A DNA stretch of 64,000 bases from positions 62,001-126,000 of the forward strand of contig NZ_JAKMCS010000008.1 in the NCBI RefSeq assembly GCF_022662195.1. Direction: 5' to 3'. The notes beneath the pieces were generated by a model. It did no database searches. It saw nothing but the letters and a program-made list of their open reading frames with translations, and was not told where the DNA came from. This DNA comes from Aestuariivivens insulae. Its GTDB lineage: Bacteria; Bacteroidota; Bacteroidia; Flavobacteriales; Flavobacteriaceae. This document shows, in pieces, positions 6,504 through 59,465 of this stretch (position 1 is its first letter; the number at the start of each line of letters is the position of its first letter). Position numbers and translations under genes: made by a program.

Positions 6504-6581
6504 GGTTTAAACTAAAATTATACAACTCTAAATTTAGTTTTTTAACTTGAGAATAGAAAATAATAAATTGATGGAATGGAT

Positions 6582-6700
6582 AAGCTGGAAGTTGGAAGTT
6601 AGAAGCTGGAAGTTAGAAGTTAGAAGCTAGAAGTTAGAAGCTAGAAGATGGAAGTTGGAAGCTTGAGGCTTGAAGCTTGAAGCTTGAAGATGGAAGTTAG
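6582..6700. repeat. Array of 17 heptamers, consensus AAGYTDG
   Basis: Read from 6582, the sequence breaks into 17 uninterrupted 7-base units. Sixteen start AAG and one starts AGG; units include AAGTTAG, AAGCTAG, AAGTTGG, AAGCTTG and AAGATGG. There are no unique spacers, so it is not a CRISPR. Short arrays in the same AAG register flank both four-helix-bundle genes at 54.6-56.6 kb. Confidence 0.9.
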
Positions 6701-6788
6701 TGTACGTCCCTAATATAGATTGACCACTAAAAAATCAAATCCTATTGGGTTAACTTTTTTAACTACCTTGTTTTCATATTGTTTACTC

Positions 6789-21808: not shown

Positions 21809-22163
21809 AAGTTTAAAGTTTCTAGTTATCGTTAATAATATACGCTCAATAGTTAAAAATAGATCATTTTCAACTTCGATGTATGAAACAAAAATAACGC
21901 CAAAAATGTGATTATCTTGAGCGTTGACATAAAAATATTAACTTTTTTAAATCAATAATCGTTTAAAAGCACATTTACAGATCTTAATAAAAAAGCTTAT
22001 AGTTGTATTGACTTTTAGGGTTTAATAAGTGGTTTTTATTGTTATGTTAAGGAATGTACTGTTTAAGACAATGTTATAGACAAAAATAAAAGCCATGACT
22101 GCGTCTCAGTACTGAACACCGAACACTGAACACTGAACACTGAATAAACCAACTGTTAACTGC
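21809..22163. other. Gene-free interval with heptamer repeats
   Basis: No coding frame of note. The promoter region of the 21305 gene should lie at its left end. A TGAACAC-type heptamer array sits at 22113-22140 near the end of the 22164 gene. Otherwise nothing was recognised. Confidence 0.6.
22113..22144. repeat. Four heptamers, (T/C)GAACAC
   Basis: TGAACAC, CGAACAC, TGAACAC and TGAACAC follow without interruption, then TGAA. It has the same 7-base period as the array at 6582 but a different unit. Confidence 0.8.
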
Positions 22164-23015
22164 TTACTTTCTTTTATTCTGATCCACTATAGTAATGGCA
22201 GCAATGAGATCTTGAAATTCGATGTCGTCATAATCTTCTTCCTCCTCATTCACATAAAAGGGAGATAGTTTATCCTTATTAAAGTGATATACTTTCCAGC
22301 GTTTAAACTGATATTCCAATGCGGTAAAGTTTTCAACCCAATCCCCCGAATTCAAGTACAGGGTTCTACCATGCTTATTCTCTTTATATTCCATTTTGGG
22401 CTGATGGATATGGCCACAAATGACATAGTCGTAGCCATTTTCTATGGCTAAATCGGTGATAACAGTTTCGTAATCATTTATATATTTTACAGCACTTTTA
22501 ACACTGTTCTTTATTTTTTTTGATAACGAATAACGTTCCTTACCCCGTTTTTCCAAATACCAATTCGCAAACCTATTTAAAAGTGTTAGAATATTGTAAC
22601 CGTAACTACCTAGTTTAGCTATCCATTTAGCATTTTGTATGGATACATCAAACACATCCCCATGTAACAACCAAGCCTTTTTACCATCTACTTCCAAAAC
22701 CATTTTGTTCACAATTGAAATGTTTCCTATGGTGGTCCCGGCAAATTTCCTTAGCATTTCGTCGTGGTTGCCAGTAATGTAAATAATTTCTACGCCACGG
22801 GATGCCAAGTCAATTAACTTTTTAATGACTTTTAAATGGGATTTAGGAAAATAGCGTTTAGTAAATTGCCAAACATCAATGATATCTCCATTCAAGATAA
22901 GCTTTTTAGGTTCAATACTATTTAAGTAGCTTAATAAATCTTTGGCATGGCAACCATAAGTGCCCAAATGGATATCAGAAATAACGGCAATTTCAACTTT
23001 ACGTTTTATTTTCAA
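22164..23015 (-). CDS. LpxH-like metallophosphoesterase (UDP-2,3-diacylglucosamine diphosphatase type)
   Basis: The 283-residue protein has all calcineurin-type phosphoesterase motifs: DIHLG (about residue 15), NGDIIDVW, GNHDE, HGDVFD and GHIHQPK. The LNGDIIDVWQFTKRYFP segment and the spacing to GNHDE resemble LpxH and its close relatives, which cleave UDP-2,3-diacylglucosamine to lipid X in lipid A synthesis. It is somewhat longer than E. coli LpxH (about 240). The C-terminal 30 residues are acidic. A different sugar-nucleotide diphosphatase role cannot be excluded. It appears monocistronic. Confidence 0.8.
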   Translation of the reverse strand: MKIKRKVEIAVISDIHLGTYGCHAKDLLSYLNSIEPKKLILNGDIIDVWQFTKRYFPKSHLKVIKKLIDLASRGVEIIYITGNHDEMLRKFAGTTIGNISIVNKMVLEVDGKKAWLLHGDVFDVSIQNAKWIAKLGSYGYNILTLLNRFANWYLEKRGKERYSLSKKIKNSVKSAVKYINDYETVITDLAIENGYDYVICGHIHQPKMEYKENKHGRTLYLNSGDWVENFTALEYQFKRWKVYHFNKDKLSPFYVNEEEEDYDDIEFQDLIAAITIVDQNKRK

Positions 23016-52732: not shown

Positions 52733-54544
52733 TTAAAAACAATAGGTATTCTCCTGAATAACTTTATTAGCTATAATTTGCCTTAATTCGATAATGTTGG
52801 GCATGTTATTATATTTAATATAACGTTTTAGACCCATAAGCATCATACGTTGTTCATCACCGGTAGAGAATGAAATAATGGAATGTTTTCCAGCAGTTTC
52901 AATAACATCTATGGCATGGAACAGGTTTAGTTTTGCCATAGCTATTTGCTCTTTTGCATTTTCTTCTCCTTTGGTTTTTGCCATTTTTTCGGCGCGTAGA
53001 ATTGCAGATTCCGCCAAATAAATTTGAATCAAAATATCGGATGCAGCCAACATAAGCTGTTGTTGTTCTTCTATTTGTTCGCCATATTTCTGCAAGGCTG
53101 CCCCGGCAACCATTAAAAAGAGTTTCTTTAAATTTTTGATGATACTTTTTTCTTCTGAAAACAGCTCAGAATAATCTGCAGTCTCAAATGACGGAATGCC
53201 CATTAGTTCTTCCTTAACGGCCATGGCGGGGGTGAGCACGTCTACATGGCCTTTCATGGCTTTTTTGATGAGCATACCAATGCAAAGCATGCGGTTGATT
53301 TCGTTGGTGCCTTCGTAAATTCTTGTTATACGAGCATCTCTCCAAGCCGATTCCATTGGGGTATCTTCGGAAAAGCCCATGCCTCCAAAGATTTGAATGC
53401 CTTCGTCTGAACATTTTTGGATGAATTCTGAAACAGCCACCTTCAGCATAGAGCATTCAATAGCATATTCTTCAACACCTTTAAGCTCTGCCTCCTGATG
53501 GGAATCTTTACCATTGTCTTTTCTGAGTTCAATACGGTCTTCAATATTTTTTGCCGCTCTATAACAAGCAGCTTCACCAACCCAACAGTTGGTAGCCATT
53601 TCGGCTAATTTTTGTTGAATGGCACCAAAACTGGAAATGGATCGTTTAAATTGAATGCGTTCATTGGCATATTTAACAGATTCTGAAATCACACGACGTT
53701 GGGCATCTAGACAGGCAACAGCCAATTTTATCCTACCCACATTAAGGGCATTCATGGCAATTTTGAAACCATTCCCCCTGGTTGAAAGCATATTTTCAAC
53801 AGGAACTTCGGTTTCATTAAAAAATACTTGGCGCGTAGATGAAGCACGAATGCCTAGTTTATGTTCTTCTTCACCCAAGGTAATGCCATTAGGATTTTCA
53901 GGGTCGTATTCTACAATAAATCCGGTAATGTATTTATCATCTTCAATACGGGCAAAAACAATCATAAGATGACAGAATCCAGCATTTGAAATCCACATTT
54001 TTTGTCCGGTAATTTTATAGGTTTTACCGTCTTCAGAAAGTACCGCTTTAGTTTTACCGGAATTGGCATCGCTACCGGCACCCGGTTCTGTTAAGCAATA
54101 GGAGCCAAACCATTCACCAGAGGCCAGTTTTGGAACATACTTTTGTTTTTGTTCTTCGGTACCATAAAGTGTAATGGGCATCGTTCCTATACCGGTATGC
54201 GCACCAAAAGCCGTACTAAATGAACCCGTAGCGCCAGAAATATAGTCGCAGACCAACATAGTATCCACAAAGCCCATACCCATACCGCCATAAGCTTCGG
54301 GAACGGCAACACTTAAAAAGCCAAGTTCGCCCGCTTTTTTCATACAGGATTCGGTTAGCGCATAATCTTTTTGTTCAAACTGCGCTTTTTTGGCCCAAAT
54401 TTCGCGATCTACAAATTCGGTTACGGCCTCTTTCATCATCAATTGATCTTCATTGAAATCTTCTGGCGTGAATACATCCTCGCAGGTTGTTTCTTTTACG
54501 AGGAATTGACCACCTCTTAATATGTTTTTTTCTGTTTCTTTCAT
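52733..54544 (-). CDS. fadE: Acyl-CoA dehydrogenase (FadE type)
   Basis: I use the ATG at 54544; a TTG ten codons upstream is in frame. The 603-residue flavoprotein has the usual acyl-CoA dehydrogenase domains in the first 430 residues (LTEPGAGSDANSG, KMWISNAGF, and catalytic-region RITRIYEGTNEINRM) and a C-terminal extension of about 150 residues, as in very-long-chain and FadE-type enzymes. It oxidises acyl-CoA to trans-2-enoyl-CoA, passing electrons to ETF. It is third in the fadN-fadA-fadE order, the same order as the B. subtilis fadNAE operon. A four-helix-bundle ORF lies between it and fadA. Confidence 0.93.
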   Translation of the reverse strand: MKETEKNILRGGQFLVKETTCEDVFTPEDFNEDQLMMKEAVTEFVDREIWAKKAQFEQKDYALTESCMKKAGELGFLSVAVPEAYGGMGMGFVDTMLVCDYISGATGSFSTAFGAHTGIGTMPITLYGTEEQKQKYVPKLASGEWFGSYCLTEPGAGSDANSGKTKAVLSEDGKTYKITGQKMWISNAGFCHLMIVFARIEDDKYITGFIVEYDPENPNGITLGEEEHKLGIRASSTRQVFFNETEVPVENMLSTRGNGFKIAMNALNVGRIKLAVACLDAQRRVISESVKYANERIQFKRSISSFGAIQQKLAEMATNCWVGEAACYRAAKNIEDRIELRKDNGKDSHQEAELKGVEEYAIECSMLKVAVSEFIQKCSDEGIQIFGGMGFSEDTPMESAWRDARITRIYEGTNEINRMLCIGMLIKKAMKGHVDVLTPAMAVKEELMGIPSFETADYSELFSEEKSIIKNLKKLFLMVAGAALQKYGEQIEEQQQLMLAASDILIQIYLAESAILRAEKMAKTKGEENAKEQIAMAKLNLFHAIDVIETAGKHSIISFSTGDEQRMMLMGLKRYIKYNNMPNIIELRQIIANKVIQENTYCF

Positions 54545-54565
54545 GGTGTTCGAATTAATAGAATC

Positions 54566-54586
54566 AAGAGTCAAGAACCAAGATTT
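54566..54586. repeat. AAG heptamers on the fadE side of four-helix ORF 1
   Basis: AAGAGTC, AAGAACC and AAGATTT are contiguous on the plus strand. The inner AGAACCAAGA (54574-54583) is repeated in inverted orientation at 54963-54972 on the other side of the ORF. Confidence 0.65.
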
Positions 54587-54616
54587 ATAGATTTAACCCT
54601 GATTGAAATCTTGAAA

Positions 54617-54937
54617 TCATTTTTTGAATTTTATTGTTTTTTGATCTAGTTCGTTAAACTTATCTTCACTGAGATAGTTTTCATTATAGGCTACTATCAA
54701 TTGAGTTTCCCATTCAAAAGCAGATCCTAAGCTATCTTCTAAATATTTATTAAAATATTTGTCTGAGCTTTTACTTGATCCTTCTGAAATATTTGAGGGT
54801 ATTGAAACAGCACTTCTATTCATTTGTATTACTAATCCAAATTTCTCAAAATCTGGAAATGTTCTGGTAAGCTTATAGTTATCTCTTACTAGTTCTATTC
54901 CTTCTTGCCAAATTTTTAATTTTTTAAAGTTGTGCAT
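54617..54937 (-). CDS. Four-helix-bundle (S23/IVS-type) protein 1, probable frameshift near C-terminus
   Basis: The 106-residue product matches the four helix bundle family first known from 23S rRNA intervening sequences: FKKLKIWQEGIELV, FGLVIQMNRSAVSIPSNISEGSS and a third/fourth-helix segment. It stops early at IKFKK. Adding one base in the A run corresponding to 54629-54632 restores IKIQKMISRFQSGLNL and a stop at 54585, giving the usual length of about 118. A one-base deletion is therefore likely. The ORF lies between fadA and fadE on the same strand, flanked by 10-base inverted repeats. No function in fatty-acid oxidation is expected. Confidence 0.8.
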   Translation of the reverse strand: MHNFKKLKIWQEGIELVRDNYKLTRTFPDFEKFGLVIQMNRSAVSIPSNISEGSSKSSDKYFNKYLEDSLGSAFEWETQLIVAYNENYLSEDKFNELDQKTIKFKK

Positions 54938-54962
54938 CTGTCTTTGTTCTAGTTTCTAAAAG

Positions 54963-54972
54963 TCTTGGTTCT
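54963..54972. repeat. Inverted repeat partner on the fadA side of four-helix ORF 1
   Basis: TCTTGGTTCT is the exact reverse complement of 54574-54583. It overlaps the fadA stop codon (54971-54973) and is part of a degenerate heptamer stretch (54941-54972) read on the minus strand. Confidence 0.65.
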
Positions 54973-56161
54973 AATTAAGAAATTCAAAAATGGCACAAGC
55001 GCCTTGCCCCGTACCTACACACATAGTAACAGCGCCATATTTGTTTTTCATGTTGCGCTTTCGCATTTCATCAAACAATTGAACCGATAATTTAGCTCCT
55101 GTACATCCCAGCGGATGACCAAGAGCGATGGCACCACCATTAACGTTTACTAAATCCGGATTTAAATTTAATTCCCTAATAACGGCTAGCGATTGGGAGG
55201 CAAAGGCCTCATTCAATTCAATTAAATCTAAATCATCTTGCTTCAATCCTGCAAGTTTTAAGGCTTTGGGGATGGCTTTTACAGGCCCAATTCCCATAAT
55301 GCGGGGTTCTACACCTACGGCCGCATAGCTTACCAAACGTGCAATAGGTTCCAGGTTAAGTTCTTTAACCATGGTTTCACTCATAACCATAACAAAAGCA
55401 GCACCATCACTCATTTGGGATGAATTCCCAGCTGTTACTGTACCACCTTGAGCAAAAACAGGACGTAGTTTAGCCAATGCTTCCAGGCTTGTATCTGCAC
55501 GAGGGCCTTCGTCTTTGGTAACGGTATAGGTTTTTGTAGTTTTTTTGCCATTGGAGTCAATGTACGTTTGTTCAACTTCAATGGGTACAATTTGATCTTG
55601 AAATCGGTTTTCAGCTTGTGCTTTCAGGGCTTTTTGATGGGAGTTATAAGCGAAAGCATCTTGGTCTTCACGAGATACTTTAAACTGTTTAGCTACAGCT
55701 TCAGCCGTATTGCCCATACCCCAGTAATAGTCTTCGTGACCAGCTTTTATGGTATCGTAATTGAGCTCTGGTTTAAACCCTGTCATAGGTACAGCGCTCA
55801 TACTTTCGGAACCGCCTGCTATAATACAATCGGCCATACCGGCCTGAATTTTAGCAGTAGCGATGCCTATGGTTTCAATACCTGAAGAACAAAACCTGTT
55901 TACCGTTACGCCAGGCACATCAATACTATTTAAACCAATGAGTGAAATAAACCGCGCCATATTTAAGCCTTGTGAGCCTTCGGGCATGGCGTTGCCTACA
56001 ATTACATCATCAATTCTTGAAACTTCAAGATTGGGTAATTCTTTCATCATGTATTGAATGGTTTCAGCGCCCAATTCATCGGCTCTTTTAAACCGAAATA
56101 CACCTTTAGGGGCTTTCCCAACTGCTGTTCTGTATGCTTTGACTATATATGCTGTTTTCAT
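54971..56161 (-). CDS. fadA: Acetyl-CoA acyltransferase (thiolase)
   Basis: The 396-residue thiolase has the nucleophile region RFCSSGIETIG (about residue 90), GGAIALGHPLGCTGA with the catalytic histidine, and CVGTGQGACAIFE at the C-terminus with the second cysteine. It cleaves 3-ketoacyl-CoA to acetyl-CoA and a shortened acyl-CoA. It is the middle enzyme gene of the fad operon. Both of its flanks carry a four-helix-bundle ORF with heptamer repeats. Confidence 0.95.
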   Translation of the reverse strand: MKTAYIVKAYRTAVGKAPKGVFRFKRADELGAETIQYMMKELPNLEVSRIDDVIVGNAMPEGSQGLNMARFISLIGLNSIDVPGVTVNRFCSSGIETIGIATAKIQAGMADCIIAGGSESMSAVPMTGFKPELNYDTIKAGHEDYYWGMGNTAEAVAKQFKVSREDQDAFAYNSHQKALKAQAENRFQDQIVPIEVEQTYIDSNGKKTTKTYTVTKDEGPRADTSLEALAKLRPVFAQGGTVTAGNSSQMSDGAAFVMVMSETMVKELNLEPIARLVSYAAVGVEPRIMGIGPVKAIPKALKLAGLKQDDLDLIELNEAFASQSLAVIRELNLNPDLVNVNGGAIALGHPLGCTGAKLSVQLFDEMRKRNMKNKYGAVTMCVGTGQGACAIFEFLN

Positions 56162-56164
56162 AAA

Positions 56165-56192
56165 AAGTATTTGGTATTAAGTACGAAGTATT
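56165..56192. repeat. AAG heptamers on the fadA side of four-helix ORF 2
   Basis: AAGTATT, TGGTATT, AAGTACG and AAGTATT are contiguous on the plus strand. The 10 bases GTATTAAGTA (56174-56183) occur inverted at 56568-56577. Confidence 0.7.
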
Positions 56193-56196
56193 ATGA

Positions 56197-56547
56197 CTAT
56201 TTCAGGGAATTTTGAAGTGCAAAGTTCATTTTTGTGACTTCAACTATTTCATTGATTATTGGTCTTAGCTTTTCTTCTGTTGTTAGATTTAGTCGTTTTG
56301 ATAAATACAGTTGTGTTAATAGTTCAAATGAAGAACCATTAGCTATTCCTAAAAATTGTTTGAATTCTCCGTTGGAGTTTCTTCCTGCTCCTTCAGCTAT
56401 ATTTGAGGGGATAGAAATTGCACTTCTCCTTAATTGAGATGTTAATCCGTATTTTTCTTCTTTCGGGAAATTTTCAGAAATCCTATAACAGTTTTCGGTT
56501 ATATCCATTGCTTTCTGCCATATTTTTAGTTCTTCAAATCTGTGCAT
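56197..56547 (-). CDS. Four-helix-bundle (S23/IVS-type) protein 2
   Basis: The 116-residue protein is an intact member of the same family as the ORF at 54617: FEELKIWQKAMDI, YGLTSQLRRSAISIPSNIAEGAGR, FKQFLGIANGSSFELLTQL and a last helix ending QNSLK. The two proteins share the same layout but differ widely in sequence, so they are not a recent duplication. It lies between fadN and fadA, 35 bases from the fadA start. Diversity-generating retroelements use a related accessory protein (Avd), but no reverse transcriptase or template repeat is seen here. Confidence 0.88.
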   Translation of the reverse strand: MHRFEELKIWQKAMDITENCYRISENFPKEEKYGLTSQLRRSAISIPSNIAEGAGRNSNGEFKQFLGIANGSSFELLTQLYLSKRLNLTTEEKLRPIINEIVEVTKMNFALQNSLK

Positions 56548-56558
56548 AACTTTTAGTT

Positions 56559-56579
56559 TTGTCTTTATACTTAATACTT
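56559..56579. repeat. AAG heptamers on the fadN side of four-helix ORF 2
   Basis: Read on the minus strand, AAGTATT, AAGTATA and AAGACAA are contiguous. They contain the inverted partner (56568-56577) of 56174-56183. Orientation is opposite to the array on the other side of the ORF. Confidence 0.7.
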
Positions 56580-56600
56580 TCTACTAAATACACTTCGTAA

Positions 56601-59009
56601 TTAGTTACGAAGCGGTTTCCCCGTTTTCAGCATATGCTGTATACGTTCTAAGGTTTTGCGTTCTGTACATAAACTTAAAAATGCTTCGCGCTCTATATCC
56701 AATAAATATTGTTCGCTTACCAATGTTGGCTCCGATAAATCGCCACCTGCCATAACATAGGCTAGTTTATTGGCAATTTTTTGGTCGTGTTCGCTTATAT
56801 AATTGCTGGCTTCCATAGCATCGGTACCCACTAAGAACATACCTAATGCCTGTTTGCCTAAAACTTTAACGTCACTACGTTTTACAGGTTTCGTATAGCC
56901 TGTTTCTGCCATTAATTTGGCATAAGCTTTGGCCGTGGCAATTTGGCGATCTTTGTTAACCACGACAACATCTTTTCCTTTTTGTAGTACTCCCAAATCG
57001 AATGCTTCATAAGCCGATGTAGATACTTTGGCCATGCCTATGGTTAAAAAGTATTCTTGTAAAACATTCAGTTCGACATCACCTTTTCTAAAGGTATCCG
57101 ATGCCCTTAAGGCCATTTCTTTCGAGCCTCCGCCACCAGGAATAACACCAACGCCAAATTCAACCAATCCCATATAGGTTTCTGCGGCAGCAACTACTTT
57201 ATCGGCATGCATGGAAAGCTCACATGCACCTCCAAGAGATAGGCCATGTGGCGCAGATATGGTAGGGATTGATGAGTAGCGCATGCGCATCATGGTATCT
57301 TGAAAGTACTTGATGGCTGCATTCAATTCGTCGTATTCCTGCTCTACGGCTAACATAAAGATCATACCAATATTGGCACCAACTGAGAAATTGGCGCCTT
57401 GGTTACCAACAACTAATCCCTCGAAATTCTGTTCTGCTAAATCTATTGCTTTGTTTAATCCTGCAAGTACATCGCCGCCAATGGTATTCATTTTCGACTG
57501 GAATTCACAATTTAAAATGCCGTCGCCTAAATCTTCAATAACAACTTCGGAATTTTTATATACTTCATTGGTTTTTCTAATATTATCCAATATGATAAAC
57601 GCATCTTGACCAGGAACCTTTTCTTGCGATTTTTTAGCAATATCATAGACATAAGTAGCGCCATTTTTTACTGCATAAAATGACGTATTTCCTGAAGTAA
57701 CCATATCGTTTATCCAAGAGGCAACCTCCAAGTTTTCGGCTTTTATGAGTTCAATACCCTTGTCAATACCTATAGTATCCCAAATTTGAAAGGGGCCATG
57801 TTCCCAGCCGAACCCAGCTTTCATGGCATCGTCTATTTTGTAAATGTCGTCTGATATTTCTGGAATACGATGTGAAACATAAGCGAACAAAGCCGCAAAC
57901 GTTTTTCTGTAAAAGGTGCCAGCTTTATCTTTTCCGTTTACTAGGATGCTAAAGCGGTCTATAACTTTATCGACTGATTTCGTTAATTCTAAGGTTGCAA
58001 ACTTTGCTTTATTTGCCGAGCGATATTCCAGAGTATTTAAGTCTAACGATAGTATTTCCTTTTTGCCATCTTCAGTAACTTGTTTTTTGTAAAATCCTTG
58101 CCCAGATTTGCTACCAAACCATTTGTTTTCCATCATGGTATTAATGAAATCGGGAAGGTTAAAGAGTTCTATACGTTCATCTTTTTTACAATTTTCGGCG
58201 ATACCATTGGCCACGTGGACTAATGTATCCAAGCCCACTACGTCTACTGTTCTAAAGGTGGCTGATTTAGGACGACCGATAACGGGACCGGTAAGTTTAT
58301 CCACTTCTTCTATGGTCAATTCCATATCTTTAACAATATGAAATAGACTCATAATGCTAAAAATTCCAATTCTATTGCCGATAAATGCAGGGGTGTCTTT
58401 TGCGACAACCGCAGTCTTGCCAAGAAATTGCTCGCCATAACCGTTAAGGAAGTCCAATACGTCCTGGGACGTTTCAGGTCCTGGTATAATTTCAAATAAT
58501 TTTAGGTAACGTGCTGGATTGAAGAAGTGAGTGCCACAAAAGTGTCTTTGAAAGTCGTCACTTCTGCCTTCACTCATAAATTTAATAGGGATACCCGATG
58601 TATTACTGGTGATTAAAGTTCCAGGTGTTCTGTATTGTTCCAGTTTTTCAAAGACTTGCTTTTTTATATCGAGTCGTTCTACAACAACTTCCATAATCCA
58701 ATCAACATGGGCAACTTTAGCGATATCGTCTTCTAAATTACCAGTGGTTATCCTACTGGCAAATTTTTGATGGTAAATAGGAGAGGGGCTAGATTTAAGG
58801 GCTTTTGCCAAGGCCTCATTAACCAATCGGTTTCTTACTACTTTATCATTTAAAGTAAGCCCCTTGGCTTTTTCATTTTCATTTAATTCCCTTGGTACAA
58901 TATCCAATAGAAGTACTTCTACACCAATATTGGCAAAGTGGCAAGCGATACCACTTCCCATTATTCCAGAACCTATTATGGCTACTTTTTTAATTCTACG
59001 TTTGCTCAT
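56601..59009 (-). CDS. fadN: 3-hydroxyacyl-CoA dehydrogenase / enoyl-CoA hydratase (FadN type)
   Basis: I use the ATG at 59009, 12 bases after the marR stop; the in-frame TTG at 59021 is less likely. The 802-residue protein has an N-terminal NAD-binding domain (VAIIGSGIMGSGIACHFA), the 3HCDH domains with THFFNPARYLKLFEIIPG, a second C-terminal 3HCDH part, and then a hydratase domain (GGACELSMHADKVVAA and GVGVIPGGGGSKEMALR, about residues 590-650). The dehydrogenase-first order is that of B. subtilis FadN (YusL), the reverse of E. coli FadB. It does steps two and three of beta-oxidation. Confidence 0.93.
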   Translation of the reverse strand: MSKRRIKKVAIIGSGIMGSGIACHFANIGVEVLLLDIVPRELNENEKAKGLTLNDKVVRNRLVNEALAKALKSSPSPIYHQKFASRITTGNLEDDIAKVAHVDWIMEVVVERLDIKKQVFEKLEQYRTPGTLITSNTSGIPIKFMSEGRSDDFQRHFCGTHFFNPARYLKLFEIIPGPETSQDVLDFLNGYGEQFLGKTAVVAKDTPAFIGNRIGIFSIMSLFHIVKDMELTIEEVDKLTGPVIGRPKSATFRTVDVVGLDTLVHVANGIAENCKKDERIELFNLPDFINTMMENKWFGSKSGQGFYKKQVTEDGKKEILSLDLNTLEYRSANKAKFATLELTKSVDKVIDRFSILVNGKDKAGTFYRKTFAALFAYVSHRIPEISDDIYKIDDAMKAGFGWEHGPFQIWDTIGIDKGIELIKAENLEVASWINDMVTSGNTSFYAVKNGATYVYDIAKKSQEKVPGQDAFIILDNIRKTNEVYKNSEVVIEDLGDGILNCEFQSKMNTIGGDVLAGLNKAIDLAEQNFEGLVVGNQGANFSVGANIGMIFMLAVEQEYDELNAAIKYFQDTMMRMRYSSIPTISAPHGLSLGGACELSMHADKVVAAAETYMGLVEFGVGVIPGGGGSKEMALRASDTFRKGDVELNVLQEYFLTIGMAKVSTSAYEAFDLGVLQKGKDVVVVNKDRQIATAKAYAKLMAETGYTKPVKRSDVKVLGKQALGMFLVGTDAMEASNYISEHDQKIANKLAYVMAGGDLSEPTLVSEQYLLDIEREAFLSLCTERKTLERIQHMLKTGKPLRN

Positions 59010-59021
59010 TTCTTTTAGCAA

Positions 59022-59465
59022 TTATTGATTTTGGTCGTAAATTTTTTTATTAGCAATCATGTCGACAATCAATTCGGCAACTTCATAAAAGTGTTCTATT
59101 TTTTCTTCCGAAATGTTATTTCTTACAGCATCATTAAAGGTAAGTACCTTTTCTCTAGAATAGTCTCTTTTTTCCTTACCAAATTCGGTTAAGTATATTA
59201 ATACGCCTCGACCGTCCTCTGGATTGGGGCGTCGTTCTATAAGCCCTCTTTCCTCCATAGATTTTAATATTCTGGATAGACTGGTGGCTTCCATGCCCAT
59301 TTTAGGCCCTAAGGCTGTAGATGGGGTACCTTTTTCGGGATCTATGCTTAATAAGGTGAAGCCAGTAGCCATGGTACTATCAAATTTAGCTGCTTCTTCA
59401 TTATACATTTTTTGTACGGTAAGCCAAGTTGTACGTAATATGTAGTCTATGGTCTTATCTTTCAT
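59022..59465 (-). CDS. MarR family regulator of the fad operon
   Basis: The 147-residue protein has the MarR winged helix-turn-helix: KGTPSTALGPKMGMEATSLSRILKSMEERGLIERRPNPEDGRGVLIYLTEFG (in pieces, about residues 48-100), flanked by dimerisation helices. It is the first gene of the marR-fadN-fadA-fadE unit. A 26-base palindrome next to its -7 element is the likely operator, so it probably represses itself and the fad genes and is released by an acyl-CoA or fatty-acid ligand. The ligand is inferred from context only. Confidence 0.9.
   Translation of the reverse strand: MKDKTIDYILRTTWLTVQKMYNEEAAKFDSTMATGFTLLSIDPEKGTPSTALGPKMGMEATSLSRILKSMEERGLIERRPNPEDGRGVLIYLTEFGKEKRDYSREKVLTFNDAVRNNISEEKIEHFYEVAELIVDMIANKKIYDQNQ

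Follow-up and report, generated by a model that had tools for sequence, protein, structure and literature searches.

In a 64,000-nucleotide stretch of the Aestuariivivens insulae genome (contig NZ_JAKMCS010000008.1, positions 62,001 to 126,000; hereafter the window), two genes of the S23/IVP four-helix-bundle family occupy the two junctions of a fad operon, and each is framed by a pair of inverted, complementary arrays of seven-base units (heptads). The same frame recurs at S23 genes of many genomes, on plasmids and, at one locus, inside a 23S rRNA gene, with heptads that differ from locus to locus. These cassettes are probably the protein-operon (mRNA-junction) form of the 23S intervening sequence (IVS), gained and lost as a unit of open reading frame (ORF) and arms, in which the S23 protein recognizes its own heptads. 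The comparison with the 23S IVS is drawn by analogy, and it builds on features read from the sequences: the layout and its generality, the presence or absence of the unit, the ORF-less forms, purifying selection on S23, the link between heptad theme and S23 lineage, and the copy in 23S rRNA.

S23 genes and their heptad arms

Both window ORFs match PF05635 (114.6 bits for ORF 1 and 138.8 bits for ORF 2, against a curated cut-off of 33.8) and TIGR02436 (98.3 and 130 bits, cut-off 24), which bears out the initial annotation's placement of S23 ORFs at the fadN-fadA and fadA-fadE junctions. The solved relative 2gsc matches ORF 2 with an E value of 4.5e-25, and the closest named relatives of ORF 2 are from Flavobacteriaceae. 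ORF 2 also matches Avd models below their cut-offs (bAvd, 24.8 versus 40 bits; DivGenRetAVD, 26.8 versus 80 bits). The family matches of the two ORFs consist solely of S23/Avd-type models and include no transposase. The three genes flanking them are fad genes by Pfam, with no adjoining reverse transcriptase gene. The window belongs to a 4.23-Mb draft genome with 14 PF05635 matches at about 13 loci. In the phylum, 232 of the 296 genomes drawn contain a PF05635 match, 220 of them above the curated cut-off; the family is absent from all 14 well-known control genomes, and ORF 2 has no match in 50,697 phage records.

The perfect 10-base inverted repeats initially described (54574-54583 with 54963-54972, and 56174-56183 with 56568-56577) are present and prove to be the cores of longer arms, the first pair overlapping the fadA stop codon as stated. 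The arm pair of cassette 1 (54574-54591 and 54955-54972) spans 18 nt with 89% match, and that of cassette 2 (56156-56181 and 56563-56588) spans 26 nt with 77% match. The arms contain the heptamers ATCAAGA, GTCAAGA and ACCAAGA as well as AAGTATT and AAGTATA. In the predicted folds of both cassettes the arms are partly paired, and cassette 2 folds better than its shuffles (z -2.26). An arm score of at least 25 is reached by three of the 51 window genes, one of which is the second S23 ORF itself. The two arm pairs of the window alone are thus only modestly unusual and not compelling against chance, and the significance of the arms therefore rests on a test across the S23 family.

For this test, the two 150-nt flanks of each locus were aligned with each other, the downstream one as its reverse complement, and the summed arm scores were compared with 20,000 random re-pairings of flanks among loci. 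Set 1 comprised 78 ORFs (excluding three fetched twice and the split ORF L012/L014), set 2, for which ORF 2 served as the query, comprised 78 of 80 named loci (two dropped), and set 3 comprised 60 of 60 loci fetched after sets 1 and 2. Set 4 comprised 27 of 30 loci (three dropped) from nine genomes labelled as phyla other than Bacteroidota; these genomes are metagenome bins, some labels may be wrong, and six loci share arms with set 2 loci. Sets 1 to 3 are not random samples: high-scoring S23 matches make up most of sets 1 and 3, and the use of ORF 2 as the query over-represents the fad site in set 2. The own-arm sum was 2157 in set 1 (re-paired mean 1348, standard deviation 36, maximum 1512), 2462 in set 2 (mean 1443, maximum 1707), 1692 in set 3 (mean 1028, maximum 1220) and 946 in set 4 (mean 458, maximum 598); no permutation reached the observed sum in any set. 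In set 1, 18 of 78 loci scored highest with their own downstream flank, ahead of every other one, 14 of the 78 lay above the 99th percentile of re-paired scores, and 45 outscored each of 20 shuffles of their flanks. Two broken ORFs of this set, L005 and L009, were scored from truncated frames, at 15 and 23 (35 and 34 in another scoring). Within the window's own genome, most of the roughly 13 loci, as judged by eye, have heptads in one flank and their complements in the opposite flank, with themes differing by locus. The core observation of the initial annotation is accordingly real and general across S23 loci.

The arms share a regular anatomy. The flanks show autocorrelation peaks at lags 7 and 14, with lag-7 values of 0.34-0.37 versus 0.29 in shuffles. 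In 94 aligned loci, in-register heptad positions 1 and 2 are A in 83% and G in 82% of cases, versus 56% and 47% in shuffled arms treated by the same rule. In both samples the motif-free length of the arrays has its peak at 28-34 nt, a class that accounts for 26/69 and 22/54 arrays found in 125 loci and for 11/27 and 13/29 found in 56 loci. In the first sample, the unbroken run of AG anchors has its mode at five (35/125 upstream and 33/125 downstream; approximately 0.1% in shuffles), and the motif-free length peak replicates better than this five-anchor peak. In 18 of 84 arms the first AG anchor falls on the last two letters of a TAG stop codon, and in another 11 it sits one heptad before that position; at several fad sites the arms start with TAG and end with CTA. 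The AG is kept only on the 5' arm in 13 heptads and only on the 3' arm in six (p 0.17 for an asymmetry between the arms). In 27 of 94 loci the own arms outscore at least 95% of the permutations of their heptads, and collinearity is therefore partial. By simple ORF calls, 142 of the 156 cassettes lie in sense between two co-directional genes. Two loci show other arrangements. The arms of L123 are reversed, with CT-type heptads upstream and AG-type heptads downstream, which places S23 between two hairpins rather than inside one. At about 1840-1960 of L006, the 3' end of the S23 gene and a CT-type array are apparently duplicated in tandem after the cassette.

Gain, loss and residence of the cassettes

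The gene fadA was sought in 60 genomes, including that of the window, and was present in 50; examination of the best 30 loci yielded 60 fad junctions. These comprise 12 with S23, six strict ORF-less heptad hairpins, 18 others of at least 45 nt and 24 shorter than 45 nt. Junctions were classed by gap length and a stem rule that missed L034 (fadN-fadA), L020 and L041 (both fadA-fadE). By eye these three resemble heptad hairpins; they fall within the 18 others, together with both junctions of L022, filled by a non-heptad repeat of the TCCCTCTCCTTTAGAGAGGGTTAGGG type. A TAG stop codon is found at 17 of the 36 gaps of at least 45 nt versus one of the 24 short gaps (Fisher p 0.0004). Where a cassette at one fad junction is accompanied by a hairpin at the other, the theme is shared in four of five genomes (cosine 0.41-0.52; between-genome mean 0.157, 95th percentile 0.469), a resemblance that is only suggestive of hairpins carrying the theme of the fad cassette in the same genome.

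Individual sites display different occupants. L002 and L201, the same junction in two species of one genus, hold distant S23 proteins (46% identity over 54 residues) with different heptads. At the site of L004, two congeners lack S23 (gaps of 61 and 65 nt), and G022 has a related cassette built of the same heptads. A different junction, L200, carries an S23 gene 70% identical to that of the L004-type cassette together with the same heptads; this site is ORF-less with those heptads in G000, and no S23 was found there in G008 or G020. No S23 was found in loci L228, L229, L231 and L233 either, their junctions lying outside the script's reading. Across the family, the heptad theme follows S23 at non-homologous sites: among the 118 of 156 loci with sufficiently strong arms, 29 pairs with S23 at least 65% identical have a mean theme cosine of 0.302, which none of 2000 permutations reached (mean 0.084, maximum 0.202). 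Of the small mobile cassette that was initially proposed, these S23-free and ORF-less sites and the theme that follows S23 uphold gain and loss of ORF and arms as a unit.

The cassettes also appear to persist. S23 is found at fadN-fadA in 47 and at fadA-fadE in 14 of the 156 loci, in many genera and in partly site-specific clades, which indicates that many copies are long-lived residents. On a tree of the 156 S23 proteins, the fadN-fadA label needs at least nine changes on well-supported branches versus 40.7 in shuffles; the fadN-fadA copies are clustered, yet they reflect several arrivals. What was initially named as counting against a mobile cassette, presence at these exact sites across distant genera with no empty sites, holds in one half: S23 recurs at these sites in many genera, but 24 of the 60 fad junctions are shorter than 45 nt. 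The ratio of nonsynonymous to synonymous divergence (dN/dS) of S23 is 0.04-0.26 in 17 of 18 pairs, the last being dS-saturated with a pN/pS of 0.14. It is 0.05-0.16 in the pairs compared from the same fad junction, and 0.06 and 0.07 for ORF 2 against its orthologues L104 and L105 at the same junction. These low values imply that the S23 protein is maintained and speak against a purely decaying parasite. Three of the roughly 13 S23 genes in this genome (L005, L009 and L012/L014) are broken by a stop or split, with their repeat flanks kept. In a record named Limnohabitans MAG (L155), fadA and fadN are 76-78% identical to those of the window, and judging from these sequences the contig is probably a mis-binned piece of Bacteroidota.

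Beyond chromosomes of the phylum, S23 occurs in 31 plasmid records of the collection, 25 of them cyanobacterial, of which 13 were examined. Arm scores of 29-60 were obtained at nine of 11 scored plasmid loci, including two near-copies and one locus from Riemerella (Bacteroidota). In three cyanobacterial plasmids (L188, L192 and L195) the S23 gene lies within a CRISPR operon. Two of these genes separate cas6 from cas4, one of them (L192) in an operon annotated as type I-D, and the third separates cas10/cmr2 from a Cmr3-family gene (type III-B). In Azospirillum (L193), an S23 gene with heptad-built arms (score 47) lies inside the 23S rRNA gene (Rfam RF02541); this is the sole locus placed within 23S among those examined, and the window cassettes lie between fad genes rather than in rRNA. 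The Calothrix loci L184 and L185 were considered as one cassette that jumped to two plasmids, an idea rejected on the near-identity of the surrounding DNA.

Heptad arrays also occur without S23. In 464 kb of this genome, 17 arrays were found versus 0.5 in shuffles, by a detector that registered just two of the six known S23 loci there. Two solo arrays lie within the window and are listed with its other features in the table, where the names fadA, fadN and fadE follow the initial annotation.

Features of the window bearing on the S23 cassettes (window coordinates)
Feature	Position	Strand	Evidence and remarks
fadE-type acyl-CoA dehydrogenase, downstream of cassette 1	52733-54574	-	Pfam; ATG at 54544 is the likelier start
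Cassette 1, 3' arm	54558-54591	-	Complementary heptads; core 54574-54591, more CAAGA heptads to 54558
S23/IVP four-helix-bundle ORF 1 (106 aa), fadA-fadE junction	54617-54937	-	PF05635, E 3.1e-33; TIGR02436
Cassette 1, 5' arm	54955-54972	-	AGAACCAAGACTTTTAGA on the coding strand; heptads continue towards the ORF; overlaps fadA stop codon
fadA (thiolase), flanked by cassettes 1 and 2	54971-56161	-	PF00108, PF02803
Cassette 2, 3' arm	56156-56188	-	Core 56174-56188
S23/IVP ORF 2 (116 aa), fadN-fadA junction	56197-56547	-	PF05635, E 9.5e-41; TIGR02436
Cassette 2, 5' arm	56563-56588	-	AAGTATT/AAGTATA heptads
fadN-type 3-hydroxyacyl-CoA dehydrogenase/enoyl-CoA hydratase, upstream of cassette 2	56601-59021	-	Pfam
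MarR-like regulator	59022-59465	-	Judged from sequence, without family search
Solo array GAAGTTG/GAAGTTA/GAAGCTG, without S23	6578-6704	.	By eye like the L007 arms in this genome
Solo array ACTGAAC	22102-22153	.	By eye like the L004 cassette elsewhere in the genome; directly after the stop of gene 22164-23015 (-)

Proposed mechanism and rival explanations

Since the anatomy is common to the 23S IVS, an IVS-like life is the simplest reading. The cassette comprises a heptad array of about 30 nt anchored by AG, an S23 (IVP) gene and the inverted-complement array, seated in sense in a gap between co-directional genes and often beginning at the upstream stop codon. It would be co-transcribed with the host operon, the arms would form a stem whose loop contains the ORF, and RNase III-type cleavage at this stem, by analogy with the Coxiella 23S IVS, would split the message. 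S23, a homopentamer in the solved relative 2gsc, most likely binds its own heptads. The dependence of arm sequence on S23 lineage suggests such recognition, which in turn would explain both the theme that follows the protein and the favored five AG anchors. If the arms are processed or bound, expression of the host operons would change, including fatty-acid oxidation and the CRISPR operons of the three cyanobacterial plasmids.

A more specific form of this mechanism is put forward tentatively, and we consider it rather doubtful as a whole. S23 may be a pentameric ring that reads five AG anchors at seven-base spacing, such that an arm of about 30 nt would be the footprint of one ring and protein and heptad would co-evolve; five anchors would suit the homopentamer of 2gsc. 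S23 elements of this kind, gained and lost in operon junctions and rRNA of many phyla, could then be the source of the scattered heptamer arrays known as STRR, TAACTGA and GGGAATC repeats.

Several observations weigh against the IVS-like reading. Arms are weak (score below 25) in 39/78 loci of set 1, 23/78 of set 2 and 27/60 of set 3, and the fold predicted for cassette 1 is no better than its shuffles (z -0.2). Among the scored plasmid loci, two of 11 lack inverted arms: the arrays of L188 run in the same direction and L190 has none. At the fadN-fadA loci L104, L105, L106 and L112, an additional CT-type array separates the AG arm from the ORF, which gives the look of a hairpin stacked on the cassette. 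The five-anchor peak is smaller and local in the later sample (9/60 and 7/60), 13 of the 17 arrays in the 464 kb lie away from S23 genes, and the site comparisons caught no recent jump with precise ends. Arm mismatches of the G-U type number 74 versus 81 of the A-C type in the 94-locus alignment, and 98 versus 121 when pooled (p 0.14). With G-U-compatible mismatches no commoner than A-C ones, there is no sign of selection on RNA pairing, and selection on an RNA stem is not claimed.

This result keeps a DNA-level element as a serious rival, in which the arrays would be terminal inverted repeats, the ORF-less hairpins would resemble miniature inverted-repeat transposable elements (MITEs), S23 would be an accessory DNA-binding protein and RNA pairing would be irrelevant. 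The cassettes do end in inverted repeats like those of DNA transposons and MITEs, though with heptads that differ between cassettes. The ORF-less hairpins, the one-armed arrays, the arms running from TAG to CTA and the missing G-U excess are consistent with this view. It is harder to reconcile with the absence of transposase models from the S23/Avd-type matches of ORFs 1 and 2, with the sense placement of 142 of the 156 cassettes between co-directional genes, and with the same anatomy in a 23S rRNA gene, where RNase III cuts such stems in Coxiella, according to PMC4990558. We regard the DNA-level element as possible rather than likely. That S23 is instead a gene domesticated by the host within the fad operon, such as a regulator, with arms that are incidental junction structure, is unlikely. 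Its 47 fadN-fadA and 14 fadA-fadE copies with partly site-specific clades, and the dN/dS of 0.05-0.16 at the same fad junction, would suit a resident gene, but the fad share is inflated by the sample drawn with ORF 2. Furthermore, 24 of the 60 fad junctions are short and S23-free, several S23 lineages occupy one junction (at least nine label changes), and S23 also lies between cas6 and cas4, cmr2 and cmr3, and other gene pairs.

The arrays could also be a neutral by-product, in which polymerase slippage and quasi-palindrome correction build arrays and arms in tolerant gaps and S23 is a bystander. The many arrays away from S23, the mismatch comparison and the variation of the arms from locus to locus would be expected under such a process. 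Against it, a score of 25 is reached by three of 51 control genes versus 39 of 78 S23 loci, array length peaks near 30 nt rather than falling off, the AG anchor is conserved, and the theme tracks S23 lineage at unrelated sites; this origin seems quite improbable. We give least credence to a retro-mobile cassette, in which S23, as an Avd homologue, would recruit a reverse transcriptase to copy the stem-loop RNA, once excised, into further junctions. The sense placement of the cassettes between co-directional genes and the weak, sub-cut-off bAvd (24.8 bits) and Avd (26.8 bits) matches of ORF 2 point in this direction, as does a PF00078 match in five of 12 S23-rich genomes, including that of the window. 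The latter match (C28; G000) lies elsewhere in the genome and covers positions 1-88 of 205 at a contig start, however, and the other seven of the 12, one with 16 S23 matches, have no PF00078 match, which leaves the reverse-transcriptase link unsupported.

Relation to known systems

Heptamer arrays have been described in other settings. TAACTGA heptamers are reported in Beggiatoaceae, Cyanobacteria and five Bacteroidetes (MacGregor 2015, PMC4679880). Like the arms described here, they are intergenic direct repeats of 7 nt near gene boundaries, often mixed with other heptamers, and their other strand has AG every seven bases. That paper sees no evident mechanism by which they would move, and its main text lacks the words "intervening", "23S" and "STRR", S23 not having been among the terms searched for. 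The GGGAATC heptamers of Xanthomonas, like their relatives in Nostoc, are also intergenic; in Xanthomonas they often form convergent (inverted) pairs, of which Xcc has 70, and mostly separate co-directional ORFs (PMC4692102). They are interpreted there as G-quadruplexes, unlike the reading adopted here, and the terms "S23" and "four helix" do not occur in the main text available. The window arms are themselves tandem 7-nt units in intergenic DNA, as in arrays of the STRR/TAACTGA type.

Two further systems offer partial parallels. REP/RAYT elements combine a protein gene framed by inverted arrays with many gene-less genomic copies. Unlike RAYT, the two S23 ORFs match no transposase family, and the heptads vary between cassettes. 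TRAP is an RNA-binding ring that recognizes spaced (G/U)AG triplets. The proposed analogy would lie in a ring protein and evenly spaced AG anchors, while the fold and subunit number of TRAP differ.

The closest known system is the IVS of Coxiella burnetii 23S rRNA, in which, according to PMC4990558, an S23p ORF lies between terminal inverted repeats that form a stem. Just ahead of the ORF are tandem GACAGAT heptamers, of which strains have two or three sets together with one variant, and RNase III cleavage has been demonstrated at the start of the first heptamer. The same source calls the 2gsc structure a homopentamer, describes the Coxiella ORF as undergoing reductive evolution and assigns S23p no known function. 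The suggestion that the association of heptamers with S23 was undescribed needs division: S23 in a stem-loop is the known 23S IVS, the Coxiella heptamers are published (PMC4990558) and L193, with its heptad arms, lies in 23S. The TAACTGA (PMC4679880) and GGGAATC (PMC4692102) repeats are also on record, and it is the heptad frame at mRNA junctions that appears to be new. In a literature search that covered few subscription papers, mostly short of full text, no link of mRNA-junction S23 with heptamer arms was found, and "heptameric repeats" and "intervening sequence" occur together only in PMC4990558. The same searches showed no account of heptad arms that regularly frame S23 genes at such junctions. 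Two puzzles, the role of the S23/IVP protein and the origin of bacterial heptamer repeats, may merge into one testable system. The window cassettes share with the Coxiella IVS an S23 ORF within repeats able to form a stem, here complementary ends of 18 and 26 nt, as well as heptamers and a sense orientation in a transcribed host. They differ in lying at junctions of a metabolic operon rather than in rRNA, in having heptad arrays as both arms whereas the Coxiella heptamers just precede the ORF, and in an S23 gene under purifying selection rather than in reductive evolution.

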